Origin: Rhizophagus irregularis | Taxonomy: Eukaryota; Glomeromycota; Glomeromycetes; Glomerales; Glomeraceae | DNA length: 64,000 nucleotides | Direction: 5' to 3' | Assembly (NCBI RefSeq): GCF_026210795.1 | Contig: NC_089458.1 | Coordinates: 496,001 to 560,000, forward strand | In this document: positions 29,555 to 51,688 of the stretch, piece by piece | Layout of the letters: each line of letters opens with the position of its first letter | Numbering within the stretch: the stretch's first letter is position 1 | The notes under the pieces: model-generated | The model's database searches: none | What the model was told of the DNA's origin: nothing | Seen by the model: the letters and a program-made list of their open reading frames with translations, nothing else | Made by a program: the position numbers and the translations under genes

Positions 29555-29803
29555 GAAATTGCAAATATATTTAACAAGCAATAGATACATAACCGTTGAA
29601 AAATATATTCACACTTCATATTGTAATACCACAGTCTAACAAAGAAAGACAAGAAATTGCAAATATATTTAACAAGCAATAGATACATGGCCGTTGAAAA
29701 ATATATTCACACTTATACCACAAAGAAAGACAAGAAATTGCAAATATATTTAACAAGCAATAGATACATGGCGTTGAAAAATATATTCACACTTATACCA
29801 CAA
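29555..29803 (+). repeat. Three tandem copies of an 81-97-bp unit
   Basis: GAAATTGCAAATATATTTAA begins copies at about 29555, 29652 and 29733; each contains AAGCAATAGATACAT and TTGAAAAATATATTCACACTT. The fourth copy start is interrupted by the element at 29804 and resumes as AGAAAGAC at 34318. Confidence 0.85.
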
Positions 29804-29859
29804 CACAGGTCGAAGGGGCACCATTGTCCAAAATTCAAAAAATGCAAATTCCACATTTT

Positions 29860-30470
29860 CCTGGAAAATGGTGGGAAATTGTGGAAAATGCTGCATTACA
29901 CTGAGCAATTTTTTGGAACAGCATTGCTACAACATCATTCCGATTTAGCAAATTTTATGAAAATTTGGGAAAATGCTACATTATATCTCAAATGTAACAT
30001 TTCGTAACATTGTTATAACATTGTCATTAAAATCAAATTTTGCTTTTTTTTTGTCAAATGTTCCAATTTTCTTGCAAATGGTGCATTTTTATGAAAATTC
30101 CACATTTTACCTCAAATGTAATAACATTTCATAAAATTGTTATAAATTGTCAATTAAAATTAAATTTTGCTTTTTTTTGTCAAATGTTGAATTTTAACTT
30201 TGCAAAATGGTACATTTTTATGAAAATGCTACATTTTATCTTCAATGTGACATCATTGTAACAACATTTCATAAAATTGTTGTAACATTGTCAATTAAAA
30301 TTAAATTTTGTCAAATATTCCGATTTTCTGGCAAATGGTGTATTTTTTTATGAAAATTCTATATTTTCTGTCAAATGTTGCATATTTCCAGCAAATTTTA
30401 AGTTTTTTTGGTCAAAATGTTTCATTTTCGTCAGAATGTTAAAATGTTGCATTTTTTTTTTGAAAATGCT
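29860..30470. repeat. Degenerate left sub-terminal repeats (ACATTTT-type)
   Basis: Many variants of TGCTACATTTTA, TGTTGCATTTT and GTAACATTG-CAATTAAAATTAAATTTTG; the TGTAACATTG / TTTTTGTCAAATGTT block recurs about three times between 30010 and 30310. Confidence 0.6.
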
Positions 30471-30479
30471 CAATAATAT

Positions 30480-30950
30480 AGCATTACACTGGAAAATGTA
30501 GCATTTTACCAAATTACACTAAAAAGCATCACAATTATTACATTTTTTGGAAAATTCCACATTACATTAAATTACACTAAATTACACTAAAAAATGTAGC
30601 ACTATACTAAATTATGCGGCATTGCACTAAAAAATACCGCAATTGCACTAGACAATGTAGCATTACACTAAAAAGTACTACAATTAGTATATTTTTTAGA
30701 AAATTTCGCGTTATACTGGAAAATGTAACATTATGCTAGAAAATGCAGAATTGCACTAAAAAACGCGGAATTGTGCTAAAAAACACGGAATTGCACTAAA
30801 AAATACGGAATTGCACTAAAAAACGCGGAATTGCACTAAAAAAATGCGGAATTACACTAAAAAACGTGGAATTGCACTAAAAAACACAAAAAAATACTAC
30901 AATTACACTGGATAATGTAGCATTACACTTAATTACATTAAAATTGTTAG
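30480..30950 (+). repeat. 17-18-bp tandem repeat, TTGCACTAAAAAACGCGGAA type
   Basis: At 30730-30890 the unit TTGCACTAAAAAACGCGGAA (17-20 bp with variation) repeats about nine times; degenerate copies extend to both sides. Confidence 0.85.
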
Positions 30951-31374
30951 GGTAATTTTTATTTATTTGTAAAAAACATGAACATTATTTAATTTACAAT
31001 ATTTATAATCACGTTAAAATATGCATTATTTAACACTAAATACACTAAACACATCAGTATATTCAACATACACGATGTGTTGTTTAATTTAATACTAAAC
31101 CTTACTACTGAAGACTCCCTCTTTTTGTCACTATAAACAGGCGGAGGGAGCAGCAATGGCTCTCCCCCTATAGGTACTTTATGGCCTCTACCTGTTTACA
31201 GAGGAGGGGCTTTTCGTAAAGTATTAGTTAATAATAGATATATATATATGTATATATAAGCATATATATACATCTATTTAAAATTAAAATAAAAAAAAAA
31301 ATTCGGGGCGGGGGAAAGCCCCTATTTATATAAAATTATATATCACGTGCATCACGTGATATTACTTAATAATT

Positions 31375-31394
31375 ACCGCAGCTTTAGCTGCGGT
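31375..31394. promoter_or_regulatory. Perfect 9-bp hairpin upstream of the intron-array unit
   Basis: ACCGCAGCT-TT-AGCTGCGGT folds into a perfect stem. Two CACGTG-type palindromes lie just before it (31344-31360) and another A/T hairpin just after (about 31410-31440). This is the expected promoter position for the unit that starts near 31467; the function is not known. Confidence 0.4.
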
Positions 31395-31466
31395 AAAACG
31401 AAAAAAAAATTAAGTTTTTTTTAGAAAAAGCTTAATTTTTTTTTCTCACGTCCCCTTTCTTTCGCC

Positions 31467-33360
31467 ATGTCTTTATCTCACCTTCCTTTTCCCCTTTTCC
31501 TTTCGTTCTCCTCCTCCCTTTTTGTTCCATTTTCCCTTTCCCTTTCGTTATCACCCTCCCTTTTCGTTCATTTTCCCTTTCCCTTTCGTTATCACCCTCC
31601 CTTTTCGTTCCATTTCCCCTTTTCCCTTTTCGTTCTTCTTTTTCCCTTCCCTTCCACTTTTCCTTCCCGGAATCTTCCTTTCAGAAAAATGAAATGGTAA
31701 GTTTCGAAGCGAAACGCTTCGAAACTTTTGATTTTTTTTTTAATTCTCTTTTGTAAGGAAACGTTTCTAACGTTTCCTATTTTTTTTTATCAGCTTTTCC
31801 AATAACGGGAATTACAATGACGCGTGGACTAAGACGCTTCATTAATTCAATGTCAATCTCACGAAGACTAAAAGTTATCAAAAATAAATAAAATATTAAA
31901 ATTACACAACATAGGTAAGTTTCGAAGCGAAACTTATTAATTTTTTTTTAAATTTCTTTTAGGAAACGTTTCTAACGTTTCCTTTCTTTTTTTTTGTAGG
32001 ATTTTCGATGTGTTGTGTTATATGCGTAAATAAAAGAGATTTCTAATGACACTTTAGGGGTTTACTTTTCAAAGCAGTGAAAATCACAATATACTTTTTG
32101 TTTTTTTTGACAGGAAACAGGTGACAGTTTTGACTTAGGAACGAAATGATGGTAAGTTTCGAAGCGGTTCGCTTCGAAACTTTAAAAAAAATTTTTTTTT
32201 TTTAATTTTTTGTAAGGAAACGTTTCTAACGTTTCCTATTTTTTTTTGTATAGATTTTTTGACTTTGGAAGGCTAATCGGTAAGTTTTGAAGCGTGTTGC
32301 ACATTTCGAAACTTCTAAAAAAAAAAATTTATTATTTTTTTTTTATTAAAAGAAACGTTTATATTAACGTTTCTTTCCTTCTTTTATAGTCGGACGTTAA
32401 CCGATGGAAACGATTGGTAAGCTTTCGCAAACTTAATTTTGTTTTTATTGTAAACGTTTATATTAACGTTTCTTTTTTACTTTTTGTAGGTTCCGGACGT
32501 TTGGATAATGGAAATCGAAACGAACCGGTGAGTTTCGCAATATTGTATTGCGAAACTTATTTTTTTAATTATTTTTTTTTAAAGAAACGATACTAAACGT
32601 TTCTTTCTTTTAATTTTTGTAGATTCTGGACGTTTGGATAATGAACTTCGAAACGAACCGGTAAGTTTTGCAACATTCTGTTGCGAAACAATTTTTATTA
32701 ATTTTTTTTAAAGAAACGATACTAAACGTTTCTTTCTTTTAATTTTTGTAGGTTCCGGACGTTAGAATGATGGAAACGACCAGTAAGTTTCGCAATGTTA
32801 CATTGCGAAACTTAATTTTTTATTTTTTTTATTAAAAGAAACGTTTATATTAACGTTTCTTTTTTACTTTTTGTAGGTTCCGGACGTTAGAATGAATGAA
32901 ACGACCGGTAAGTTTCGCAATGTTACATTGCGAAACTTAATTTTTGTTTTTTTATTAAAAGAAACGTTAACTAACGTAACGTTTGACTTTTTACTTTTGT
33001 AGGTTCCGGACGTTTGGATAATGGAAATCGTAACGAACCGGTAAGTTTCGCAACATTGTGTTGCGAAACTTAATTTTTATTTTTATTTTTTTAAAAGAAA
33101 CATTACCTAACGTTTCTTTTTTACTTTTTGTAGGTTCCGGACGTTTGGATAATGGAAATCAAAACGAACCGGTGAGTTTCGCAACATTGGTTGTGAAACT
33201 TAATTTTTATTAATTTTTTTTTAAGAAACGTTAACTAACGTTTGTTTACTTTCTTTTTTGTAGGTTTTCACCAGCTTCTACTTTGGCATTGGACATTAGA
33301 TACATGAATGAATTAGAGATGCGGATTACCCATAGATCATTGGATATCTGATGAATATAG
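31467..33360 (+). other. Candidate transcription unit with eleven hairpin introns (array A)
   Basis: A pyrimidine-rich first exon (31467-31696, containing two copies of a CCCTTTCCCTTTCG block) is followed by introns at 31697-31793, 31915-31999, 32152-32253, 32280-32389, 32417-32489, 32528-32622, 32661-32751, 32783-32876, 32908-33002, 33041-33133 and 33172-33263. All begin GTAAG or GTGAG and end in AG after a T-rich tract. Exons 4-11 are only 26-38 nt, several of them near-copies starting GTTCCGGACGTTTGG and ending ACGAACCG. In most introns the bases from +3 onward form a stem (AAGTTTCGCAATG-TTA-CATTGCGAAACTT type) and a second stem (AAACGTT-AACGTTT type) contains the branch-site-like CTAAC. 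Exon lengths are not multiples of three and frames close quickly, so a non-coding RNA is more likely than a protein. Whether the RNA is made or spliced is unknown. Confidence 0.7.
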
Positions 33361-33830
33361 ATTAATATAGATTCTCATCGTTAAATAATAATTGTGCATT
33401 TTTAATAAATAATAATGTAATAAATTATGTAAAATTATTAAATCAATGTTTTAAATTGTTATAACGTTTACACTAAATTGTTTAAAATTATTACTAAATT
33501 TCACTCAATTGTCCAAAATTATTGCAAAATTTCACTAAATTGTCTCCGAAAATGTTGCGTTTATACTGTTTACACTCAATTGTCCAAAATCAGTAAAACA
33601 TTTTCACTCAATTGTCCGAAATTATCCTAAATTTCACTAAATTATCAAAAGTTTAGCTAACATTTACCGAAAAAATGCAAAATTCACCACAATTTTCCAC
33701 AATTTGTATTACGTTTGCACAACATTGCTGGAAAATTCACCTAAATTTTCAACAATTTATATAACATTACTAAAAATACACTACAATTTACCACAATTTG
33801 CATTAAAATTACTAAAAATTTAACTAAATT
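33361..33830. repeat. Degenerate right sub-terminal repeats
   Basis: Imperfect repeats of CACTAAATTGTCCAAAATTAT-type sequence between 33470 and 33660, then CACAATTTGCATTA-type copies that merge into the 52-bp array. Confidence 0.6.
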
Positions 33831-33834
33831 CACC

Positions 33835-34095
33835 ACAATTTGCCACAATTTGCACTTCGTTTACATAAAATTACTAAAAATTTGACTAAATTCACCACAA
33901 TTTGCATTACGTTTACATAAAATTACTAAAAATTTGACTAAATTCACCACAATTTGCATTACGTTTACATAAAATTACTAAAAATTTGACTAAATTCACC
34001 ACAATTTGCATTACGTTTGCATAAAATTACTAAAAATTTGACTAAATTTTACACAATTTACATTACATTTACATAACATTACTAAAAATTTACCT
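33835..34095 (+). repeat. 52-bp tandem repeat, about five copies
   Basis: The unit TTACGTTTACATAAAATTAC...ACTAAATTCACCACAATTTGCA repeats with near identity at 33899-34055 and more loosely on each side. It forms the right sub-terminal zone of the element 29804-34314. Confidence 0.9.
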
Positions 34096-34317
34096 AAAAT
34101 TTCCCACAATTTAATGATAATTACTGAAAAATTTCTCAACATTTGAATTAGGAATTTTGTAGGATTGACGCCATTGTGACAAAATTTGCCAAATTGTAAG
34201 TCCTCCATTATCCTAAAATTGTAACACAATTTACCCCAATTTACCGGGATAATTCTCAATTTGCCAGAAAAATTCCAGGCAAATTTTGCGACAATGACAT
34301 CTGTTCGACCTGTGCAA

Positions 34318-49018: not shown

Positions 49019-50427
49019 ATTTTACAATTATTACACTTTTGTCTAAATAGGTTTATCGTCAAAAATACTAATCAGACTTTAATAAAAATCAGAATTCAAA
49101 CATTTTCATTTAATTTTTTTAAAAATTGATTGATTAAATTAAAAATATCATGGTTTGATAAAGCTATAGATTACAGTTTATTTTTTATTAATAAACAAGT
49201 TACGGTACTAATTACTTTATTACAGTAACAATTTAATTACGGATAAGGTATTTAATAAGATATCAAAAACTGATTAATAAAATTTTCTATATTAACATAC
49301 AATAAATTAGATTAATGAGCTAAATACGATAATATTATTTTTTCAAAAAAATTAAAATGAAAATATACACAAATTTTTGTTTTTGGTATGTAAGTCAAAT
49401 TAAATTACTATATGCTTAAATCATAACTCATAACCCAAAGTTGAGGATTAACCGGGTACCTTGCTTTAGATTCAGCAATACTTCCCAAGTCAGATGAGGT
49501 GCCACAGGTACGCTTTAAGAAAACTCGCTATGATAATAAGGATAAGTATATTTGAAAATACCAGATATGAATGAACATAGGATACGATGAATAATCTCAA
49601 ATAGAAAAATAAAAAATAAAAAAATAAAATAAAATAAAAATAAAAATATAAAAAATAAAATAAAATAAAAAAAATATTTTCAATTAGACAAAGCATCCTC
49701 GTTCCTTCCTGGAATTCTCATTTGACTAAATTATTATTGTTTGTAATTTGATCCATTTGAATCCACCATAAATTGCCAGATAGGGCGAACCCTTATTAGA
49801 CAATTATAGCTTCATCACCAAATGGCTGCGATGTGTTTAATGATATGGCAACCTGTTTAATTCATTTTTAAATAAGCAAACGTGGCCATAAAACTCATTA
49901 AAAAGGTAGGCTACAGAGTGCAATGCAACCTACCTAACCTAACAAGTAGGTCTAAGGGTTAGGGAATAAAATATACCCTAAACCCACGCAGTTGGTATGA
50001 AAATAAAAGTTTACAAACGGAAGTTTCAGACTGTGCCTGACGACAAAATGGGTGAGGTGCAATCAGGACTTTTTCCTCTAATCCAGCCCAGAATTATAGA
50101 GGCAACATTGTTATTGTACAAAGCATATCGACAAAAACGTCTCTCAAAGAAATTAATCAATAAAGAGTATACTTGAGCAATAGCCGATCTTCATTGTCAC
50201 CCTATAAACTCCAAAAGAACAGAAATCAGTGCAGGCATTTTGGCTTACGTATCTCTTTAAAGATTAATTAAATTGAAAGATAGGATCCAAATTCAATATG
50301 ACTGAATCGATCGCCTCCAGTTATCAAACTTCTATCAGAAGTGATCGCTAGAATCAAAGATACCAATAATCACCCTTATCAGTAACGATCGAACTAAAGA
50401 TGTTGGAGAAATAAAATCCGTCATTTA
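49019..50427. other. No supported gene
   Basis: AT-rich to about 49720, then a balanced-composition stretch (49740-50420) without open frames. TAGGGTTAGGG/CCCTAAACCC near 49955-49987 is an isolated inverted motif. Confidence 0.4.
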
Positions 50428-51688
50428 CAGTCCCCTCTCGATATAACGAACCCTAGGTTCCAGCCGATCAGGGCTTCGTTATAAGCAACTTCGTTAACAC
50501 TATAACGAATTATTCGGTATTGTATAACAAATTTTTCGGTATAGGAATATCGGTTATACAGATCATGTGACTTGTTGATCTGATTACCGATAATTTAACA
50601 TTTTTTTTAATCTTTTTTTTATAGGGGTGCTTTCTAAACTTCAAAATAGATGCCTAGAATGAGAAGTAAGTGGGAACTGGGGGTTTTTTATATTAATTTC
50701 GTTTAAGAACATTTACTAATGTTCTTTTTTTATTTTTTTTATTATAGGGAACTTCCTGGACTTCGAAATGGACGCCTGAGACGAGAAGTAAGTGGGGAAC
50801 TCAATTTTTTTTTATTTAAGAACATTTACTAATGTTCTTTTTTTATTTTTTTATTATAGGGAACTTCCTGGACTTCGAAATGGACGCTTGAGACAAGAAG
50901 TAAGTGGGGAACTCGATTTTTTTTATTAATTTTGTTTAAGAACATTTACTAATGTTCTTTTTTATTTTTTTATTGTAGGGACTTCGAAATGGACGCTTGA
51001 GACGAAGTAAGTGGGACAACTCAATTTTTTCTTTTAATTTCGTTTAAGAACATTTACTAATGTTCTTTTTTTATTTTTTTATTATAGGGAATGCTTCCTG
51101 AAGTGTTCTATATAAAAATGTTTATTATAATTCCTTTTTTTTGTAGGAATGCTGGTTAACAATAACTGACTATATAATAAATAAATTATTAATGATATAT
51201 TAATTTAACTAGGAGTGTCCTTACCCCTGTGATAAATATAAATTAATAACAATTCACATCGAATCCTAATACAACCGAATTAATGTAAATTAATGTAATT
51301 CTGCCTAAATATTAAATAAAATAGCCAGAATTATTAATCCTGATACGATCCTGATACAATCCTGATCCATAATTTAAATATAAAACACAGGGGTGATATT
51401 TAATGTCATAATGCATCAATATTTATTAATAATTACATTCAATTATAAACTATAGAAATTCTTCGTTATAACTGAAAAAAAATTCGTTATAAAAAAAATC
51501 CGTTATATCGAGAGGCATTTTTATATAAGAAATTCACACACTTTACTTTGTACTACGTTATACGGTAAATAAATAGTAAACTTCGTTATATCAAGGTTTT
51601 TTTCATATTTAAAATCGGTACCACACTGTATGATCTGTTATATCGTGTTATTCGCTATATCGAGGTTCGCTGTAGAGAGGGGTGACTG
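50428..51688. mobile_element. 1.26-kb pogo-like non-autonomous element carrying intron array B
   Basis: Left end CAGTCCCCTCTCGATATAAC, right end (reverse complement) CAGTCACCCCTCTCTACAGC, both followed by CGAACC and by many CGTTATA motifs; TA at 50426-50427 and 51689-51690. No transposase. The middle third is the tandem exon-intron array at 50625-51087. Confidence 0.85.
50625..51087 (+). other. Tandem exon-intron array B (four introns)
   Basis: Exons of 41, 40, 40 and 28 nt (50625-50665, 50748-50787, 50860-50899, 50979-51006) are near-copies (CTTCCTGGACTTCGAAATGG core, ending ACGAGAA). Introns 50666-50747, 50788-50859, 50900-50978 and 51007-51087 start GTAAGTGGG and end TTATTATAG or TTATTGTAG. 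Each contains the stem AAGAACATT-TACT-AATGTTCTT; the loop and first stem bases spell TACTAAT, a near-consensus branch site, about 20-25 nt from the AG. An upstream acceptor (TTTTTTTTATAG at 50624) and a later one at about 51147 suggest the array is part of a longer transcript. Confidence 0.75.

Follow-up and report, generated by a model that had tools for sequence, protein, structure and literature searches.

In a transposon of Rhizophagus irregularis, a long row of GT-AG introns is separated by exons of a few tens of nucleotides, and the question is what is kept in such an array: a protein, an RNA, a DNA structure or splicing itself. The window, by which we mean the whole stretch of 64,000 nucleotides that was analysed, holds one such array (array A) and a second of four introns (array B).

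The array and its carrier transposon

An earlier note on this DNA had placed eleven GT-AG introns of 73–110 nt on the plus strand between 31697 and 33263, and all of them were located at these sizes (Table 1). The inner exons measure, in order, 121, 152, 26, 27, 38, 38, 31, 31, 38 and 38 nt, and the tiny exons of the note are the eight between introns 3 and 11 (26–38 nt). The stricter splice matrix keeps 10 introns in the window array (without intron 1), the generic intron model gives a run of nine, and exon 3 (152 nt), judged by eye, may contain a twelfth intron. Independently of any intron parse, Tandem Repeats Finder reports a period of 133 with 6.4 copies at 32436–33266. A stretch resembling the TATA-like sequence and CACGTG palindromes of the window also lies upstream of the array in other copies inspected, and a terminal exon like that of the window is present in several other copies.

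The location of array A within a transposon is borne out by inverted ends and a 3-bp target-site duplication, which for the window element is CAA. Each of the two element ends lies at the same place in 23 of the 25 loci retrieved. Of 24 copies, 21 have a duplication of precisely 3 bp and one has 4 bp, while two (L010 and L034) have none. Pattern searches of the genome gave 75 left ends and 82 right ends, and for 61 of the left ends a partner right end lies no more than 16 kb away. Among the matches listed, which comprise 54 array positions, an array match lies inside at least 45 of these 61 pairings; the 45 correspond to 43 different arrays, 11 of the 54 positions lie outside any paired element, and some of the long pairings are probably nested or false. 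Two of the 16 pairings without a listed array match were inspected. One (L035, 4.2 kb) has the same ends and a diverged array. The other (L034, 8.2 kb) shares the ends and subterminal repeats of the window element and has no similarity to the array; its minus strand encodes a Transposase_21 (tnp2) domain (PF02992; E 1.4e-09, 37.9 bits against a cut-off of 28.6). Because this same-ended, array-less element encodes a Tnp2 (CACTA) transposase, the array-bearing element can be classed as a non-autonomous CACTA; judged by ends and transposase, the family is of the CACTA/EnSpm type, with the array copies as non-autonomous members. The ends of the window element start with CACAG; the textbook terminal motif of CACTA elements is CACTA. 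Inspection by eye also revealed an apparent second, multi-exon gene on the plus strand of L034 (4700–6900), one apparent intron of which begins in the palindrome GGTAATTGAGTATTACC. Directly left of the window element, at 29560–29803, an 81-bp repeat beginning ACAAAGAAAGACAAGAAATTGC stands twice in tandem, with a third partial copy seen by eye.

For 27 copies (26 retrieved and that of the window), introns were parsed with a splice matrix whose training set was the first-pass introns of this family. The parse gave 291 introns, 8–17 in each copy, all in one orientation relative to the element ends. Run on the reverse complements of 4 elements, the same matrix found no intron, and 80 shuffles of 4 arrays averaged 0.04 introns. 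With 8–17 introns per copy, the tandem multiplication of an exon-intron unit proposed in the note is supported. The generic intron model was much weaker, giving wrong-strand runs in several loci and three runs of at least four introns in a shuffled window, and a scan with it as a count of new arrays was dropped for its many false runs. The commonest exon lengths are 38 and 31 nt (63 each in the first parse), with many others, and their order differs among copies. In at least three copies (L009, L010 and L031), introns of another kind continue past the matrix-parsed array into the 3' part of the element. In this 3' unit the exon end CATTTCGAAG pairs with the intron sequence CTTCGAAATG, which places the donor in the loop.

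Table 1. Features of the array A element in the window
Feature	Position	Strand	Remarks
Non-autonomous CACTA-type (Tnp2-related) element carrying array A	29804..34314	+	4511 bp; conserved ends, TSD CAA, same-ended L034 with Transposase_21
Left terminal inverted repeat CACAGGTCGAA	29804..29814	+	end comparison among loci and genome pattern search
Left subterminal tandem repeats, 127-bp and 20-bp periods	29969..30885	.	portion to ~30441 common to L034
Promoter-like stretch (TATA-like sequence followed by two CACGTG palindromes)	31320..31362	+	putative promoter function
Pyrimidine-rich leader ahead of array	31445..31688	+	
Intron 1	31697..31793	+	97 nt; first-pass parse, absent from matrix parse
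Intron 2	31915..31999	+	85 nt; first-pass and matrix parse
Intron 3	32152..32253	+	102 nt; first-pass, matrix, generic model
Intron 4	32280..32389	+	110 nt; first-pass, matrix, generic model
Intron 5	32417..32489	+	73 nt; first-pass, matrix, generic model
Micro-exons 6–11 (38, 38, 31, 31, 38, 38 nt), near-copies of one unit	32490..33171	+	
Intron 6	32528..32622	+	95 nt; first-pass, matrix, generic model
Intron 7	32661..32751	+	91 nt; first-pass, matrix, generic model
Intron 8	32783..32876	+	94 nt; first-pass parse
Intron 9	32908..33002	+	95 nt; first-pass, matrix, generic model
Intron 10	33041..33133	+	93 nt; first-pass, matrix, generic model
Intron 11	33172..33263	+	92 nt; first-pass, matrix, generic model
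Terminal exon and A+T-rich 3' end with AATAAA	33264..33420	+	putative transcript end
Right subterminal tandem repeats, 31-bp and 52-bp periods	33447..34112	.	portion from 33679 common to L034
Right terminal inverted repeat TTCGACCTGTG	34304..34314	-	end comparison among loci and genome pattern search

Splice sites and hairpins compared among copies

For the analysis of constraint, each copy was compared with the others over columns free of gaps and backed by four or more references, and every partner site entered the count a single time. The splice consensus (GT, +4, +5, +6 and YAG) was changed at 11 of 2066 sites and the exons at 357 of 5566 (Fisher 3e-36, a p-value that overstates independence because the copies are related by descent). 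In this filtered comparison, GT and AG alone were changed at 10 of 1017 sites, donor position +3 at 24 of 263, all of them exchanges between A and G, and acceptor position -4 at 20 of 254. The T at +7, +8 and -5 was likewise stable (0/264, 4/262 and 0/252 changed), and such stability exceeds the demands of a pure splice signature. When the gap and depth filters are lifted, the contrast shrinks (94/2699 against 668/8347, acceptor -1 alone being changed at 6.7%); the unfiltered profiles give the same picture of splice-site conservation. A branch-point motif is present, yet it is not clearly more conserved than its surroundings. The changes in the exons are largely C-to-T and G-to-A. Read from the aligned copies, this pattern of tolerance is a spliceosome-like splicing signature, with the GTRAGT donor and YAG acceptor of U2-type introns under constraint. 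Moreover, the unit boundaries in other copies coincide with GT and AG, the very point on which the note had said its claim could fail; both statements hold more weakly without the filters. Since the exons drift while the splice sites stay, selection seems to act on splicing itself, and splicing, not a protein, seems to be what is kept.

The introns had also been described as structured, and the hairpins and folding energies agree with this. A donor hairpin (stem score of at least 8) was found in 228 of the 256 distinct introns of 80–115 nt and in 2 of 256 base-shuffled ones, and a hairpin in the branch-point region in 194 of the 256 against 10 shuffled; over a wider span the counts rise to 238 and 206 of 268 introns, respectively. 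In frame-checked introns of other sequence, a control set that contains false introns, donor and branch-point hairpins were found in 8 and 9 of 107. Intron 8 of array A has its donor hairpin at 32784–32814 (14 bp, loop TTA) and the branch-point hairpin GAAACGTTTATATTAACGTTTC. The folding energies of 80 sampled introns gave a mean z of -5.6 against dinucleotide shuffles, with 78 of the 80 below -2. Watson-Crick changes on both sides of a stem amounted to 100 cells, whereas none of 500 shuffles exceeded 61, a count that ignores kinship among copies and was drawn from the 77 of 140 donor windows sharing a centre. The donor has a predicted unpaired probability of 0.16 against 0.34 with a shuffled interior, and on this model the donor hairpins should hinder U1. 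The hairpin positions +9 to +30 were changed at 277 of 5561 sites (5.0%), hardly below the exons (6.4%). A first wobble comparison gave G-U 35 vs A-C 28, and 16 vs 25; a second gave G-U 51 vs A-C 27 at six inner pairs, under an inclusion rule that credits G-U.

Similar arrays elsewhere in the genome

The 146.75-Mb assembly (32 contigs) was searched with the exact donor-hairpin pattern GTAAGTTTCGCAA..TTGCGAAACTT, which gave 166 matches and none for the reversed control; a branch-point variant pattern gave 94 matches and none in the control. Among the matches listed (100 of 166), about 30 sites lie outside the family, and 13 of them were retrieved. Chosen by one exact pattern and judged by the generic intron model without gene annotation, all 13 sites are in runs of 2–7 introns with exons of 22–56 nt, and none is a lone intron. 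Their 56 introns include 39 with a donor hairpin and 36 with a branch-point hairpin. Some of these sites are near-identical dispersed copies (L036–L038; L041, L042 and L044; L047 and L048, ~90%), and several groups align mutually over 150–430 bp at 75–82%, so the groups are partly related. One site read over 4 kb (L049:1-4001) contains about 17 introns and many exons of 41–42 nt, with donors inside exon-intron palindromes such as TATTTCGAAGGTAAAGTTTACCTTCGAAATA. A tRNA-like stretch was suspected at this site; ARAGORN found no tRNA.

Array B of the window (50666–51087) has four introns of 72–82 nt and exons of 28–41 nt, with the branch-point hairpin AAGAACATTTACTAATGTTCTT. Each of its introns reaches a branch-point hairpin score of 9 and is without a donor hairpin (3–4). 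The carrier is a repeat at 50420–51530 with the ends CCTCTCGATATAACG and CGTTATATCGAGAGG, found in at least 40 places, the window included, and many of these are 92–99% alike among the matches listed. Tandem overlapping matches suggest that the repeat holds more units in some places.

What the array may do and what it would mean

We hypothesize, with a probability of roughly 0.7, that array A forms the main part of a transcription unit that is spliced and non-coding and lies in a non-autonomous CACTA transposon. Comparison among the copies provides unit duplication, splice-site constraint (GTRAGT...YAG), and donor and branch-point hairpins in most introns. One strand would be transcribed from the promoter-like stretch left of the array to the terminal exon at its right, the introns would be truly spliced, with splicing itself being kept, and the unit of a micro-exon and a ~92-nt intron would multiply and shrink via tandem duplication and loss. 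The spliced non-coding RNA that the earlier note had considered thus survives, as far as sequence comparison can tell. Non-coding intron-host genes, e.g. the snoRNA host genes, have frameless spliced exons and repeated structured introns as array A does. In contrast to the snoRNA host genes, the array element (29804–34314) matches no Rfam family at gathering score, although six matches were obtained up to E 1. The top match was to a staphylococcal sRNA model (38.6 bits against the required 90) in A+T-rich sequence just before the leader and was rejected.

As to the benefit of splicing, we tentatively propose that many efficient introns mark the transcript and the locus as a proper spliced gene, a kind of splicing 'passport', which might shield the element from small-RNA or chromatin silencing while its ends stay open to the transposase. 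For C. elegans, introns are described as an obstacle to nuclear RNAi (PMC5554785), and for Cryptococcus, transposon transcripts that splice poorly are described as templates that feed siRNA (PMC5851062). The hairpins fit this proposal badly because they should hide the donor; they might slow or time its recognition, or order the pairing of near-identical sites. More speculatively, self-masking intron arrays could be a module of their own, whose conserved unit would be an intron bearing a branch-point hairpin and, as a rule, a donor hairpin. Such arrays would by now reside in at least two kinds of transposon of this genome, their spliced, meaningless introns shielding the carrier from silencing.

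About as likely as the silencing shield is that the array is spliced but purposeless, a neutral satellite in an expressed element, the splice sites being kept only because retained introns harm the transcript or the host. The wide variation in unit number and the drift of the exons agree with this, as do the hairpin stems, which among copies decay nearly as fast as the exons. However, only partly alignable array groups again show hairpins, built on different stems, which goes beyond neutral need.

The hairpins could also make the array a small-RNA precursor, with the hairpin introns, or long complementary leader and exon tracts, yielding siRNA or mirtron-like RNA, which we consider unlikely. 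Most introns do have two hairpins, and in 3 of 10 copies checked (L031, L012 and L017) a purine-rich stretch in the 3' part is 69–83% complementary to the leader, with which it could fold into a long RNA hairpin enclosing the array. Among these 10 copies, however, such long complementarity was not found in that of the window, the Rfam result also speaks against a precursor, and Dicer acts poorly on stems this short whose loops have only a few nucleotides.

Equally unlikely is the suggestion of the note that the array is a source of introner-like elements, single units leaving it and inserting as new introns of host genes, aided by their self-complementary ends. Introns that join a spliceosomal signature, as judged by constraint only, to a stable secondary structure are indeed present, and hairpins of a similar kind are found in the introns of array groups that can be aligned only partially. 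The introner-like elements and symmetrical stwintrons of fungi (Dothideomycetes, Hypoxylaceae) are described as likewise multiplied, sequence-similar, self-complementary and internally symmetrical U2-type introns (PMC8469720, PMC4457414). In those descriptions, though, they occupy new positions in host genes and form one intron-long inverted repeat, whereas the introns of array A stand in tandem within a transposon and mostly have two small hairpins each. Furthermore, the 13 retrieved outside sites (13 of ~30, among the matches listed) all lie in other intron runs, and this selected sample contains no near-identical introns at unrelated host-gene positions.

That the micro-exons encode imperfect peptide repeats of a secreted or repeat protein is improbable, and the array exons are probably non-coding, in keeping with the view of the note that a protein is unlikely. 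Schistosome micro-exon genes and similar effector genes have many tiny exons in a row, as array A does, and continuous reading through some 38-nt exons yields runs such as SGRLDNGNRNEP. An open frame shared by the window, L018, L030 and L033 (4 of 26 copies) even extends across the final micro-exons and ends at a common point in the terminal exon, with 68 residues in the window version, but in other copies of that subfamily the terminal exon is read in a different frame. When the exons of 26 copies were joined and read in three forward frames, the longest frames (46–130 residues) lay in differing places and no reading frame was common to all copies. Exon lengths are not kept modulo three, exons of 31 and 38 nt being mixed in one array in variable order, and the many 42-nt exons of L049 are mixed with exons of 41 nt. 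Exon deletions were of 1 nt in 2601 cases, of 2 nt in 618 and of 3 nt in 294 (non-independent counts). Array A differs from the schistosome and effector genes in that it has no all-copy frame and that its exons drift while its splice sites stay. Repeat effectors such as SP7 do exist in R. irregularis, but SP7 is described with a conserved intron before the first repeat and not one per repeat (PMC11333574); the idea of an SP7-type effector was dropped.

It is very improbable that the palindromes are protein-binding sites at the DNA level and the splice-like ends incidental. The hairpin palindromes contain CpG cores, and their stems show no clear wobble preference in the first comparison and change nearly as fast as the exons; against this, the AG acceptor lies outside the hairpins and the constraint follows the degeneracy of splicing, with GT, AG, +4 to +6 and -3 nearly fixed, +3 exchanging only A and G, and -4 free. 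Least probable of all is camouflage by removal, in which splicing would cut the element out of host transcripts, and the idea of the note that transposon sequence is hidden from the mature transcript is doubtful, too: many donors and acceptors do lie on one strand, but removal would work in one orientation only, and the outermost matrix-parsed splice sites of the 22 complete copies are 1.5–2.1 kb and 0.9–2.3 kb inside the left and right ends, so that much of the element would stay, even though at least three copies hold further introns.

We return to the proposed spliced, non-coding unit and to how new it is. The window element resembles non-autonomous CACTA/EnSpm (Tnp2, Transposase_21) elements in its CAC-starting inverted ends, 3-bp duplication and subterminal repeats, but its cargo is tandem structured introns and micro-exons, not a deleted transposase gene. 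No description of such transposon-borne intron arrays was found in the open-licence literature, and the words 'intron' and 'splic' were absent in a word search of R. irregularis transposon papers. Thus, the carrier is known, an ordinary non-autonomous CACTA, and the cargo, with the caution due to a comparison with open-licence literature, is categorically new. A large unclassified share has been reported among the repeats of R. irregularis (PMC11075540), and it may partly consist of such arrays. Provided that splicing takes place as the constraint suggests, this would be a mobile element whose conserved cargo is splicing, and not protein or exon sequence. It would then be a natural system in which to ask whether fungal transposons gain protection from silencing through introns, and how near-identical introns are paired correctly across 30-nt exons when the donor is folded away. 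The array also bears on the origin of families of similar introns.
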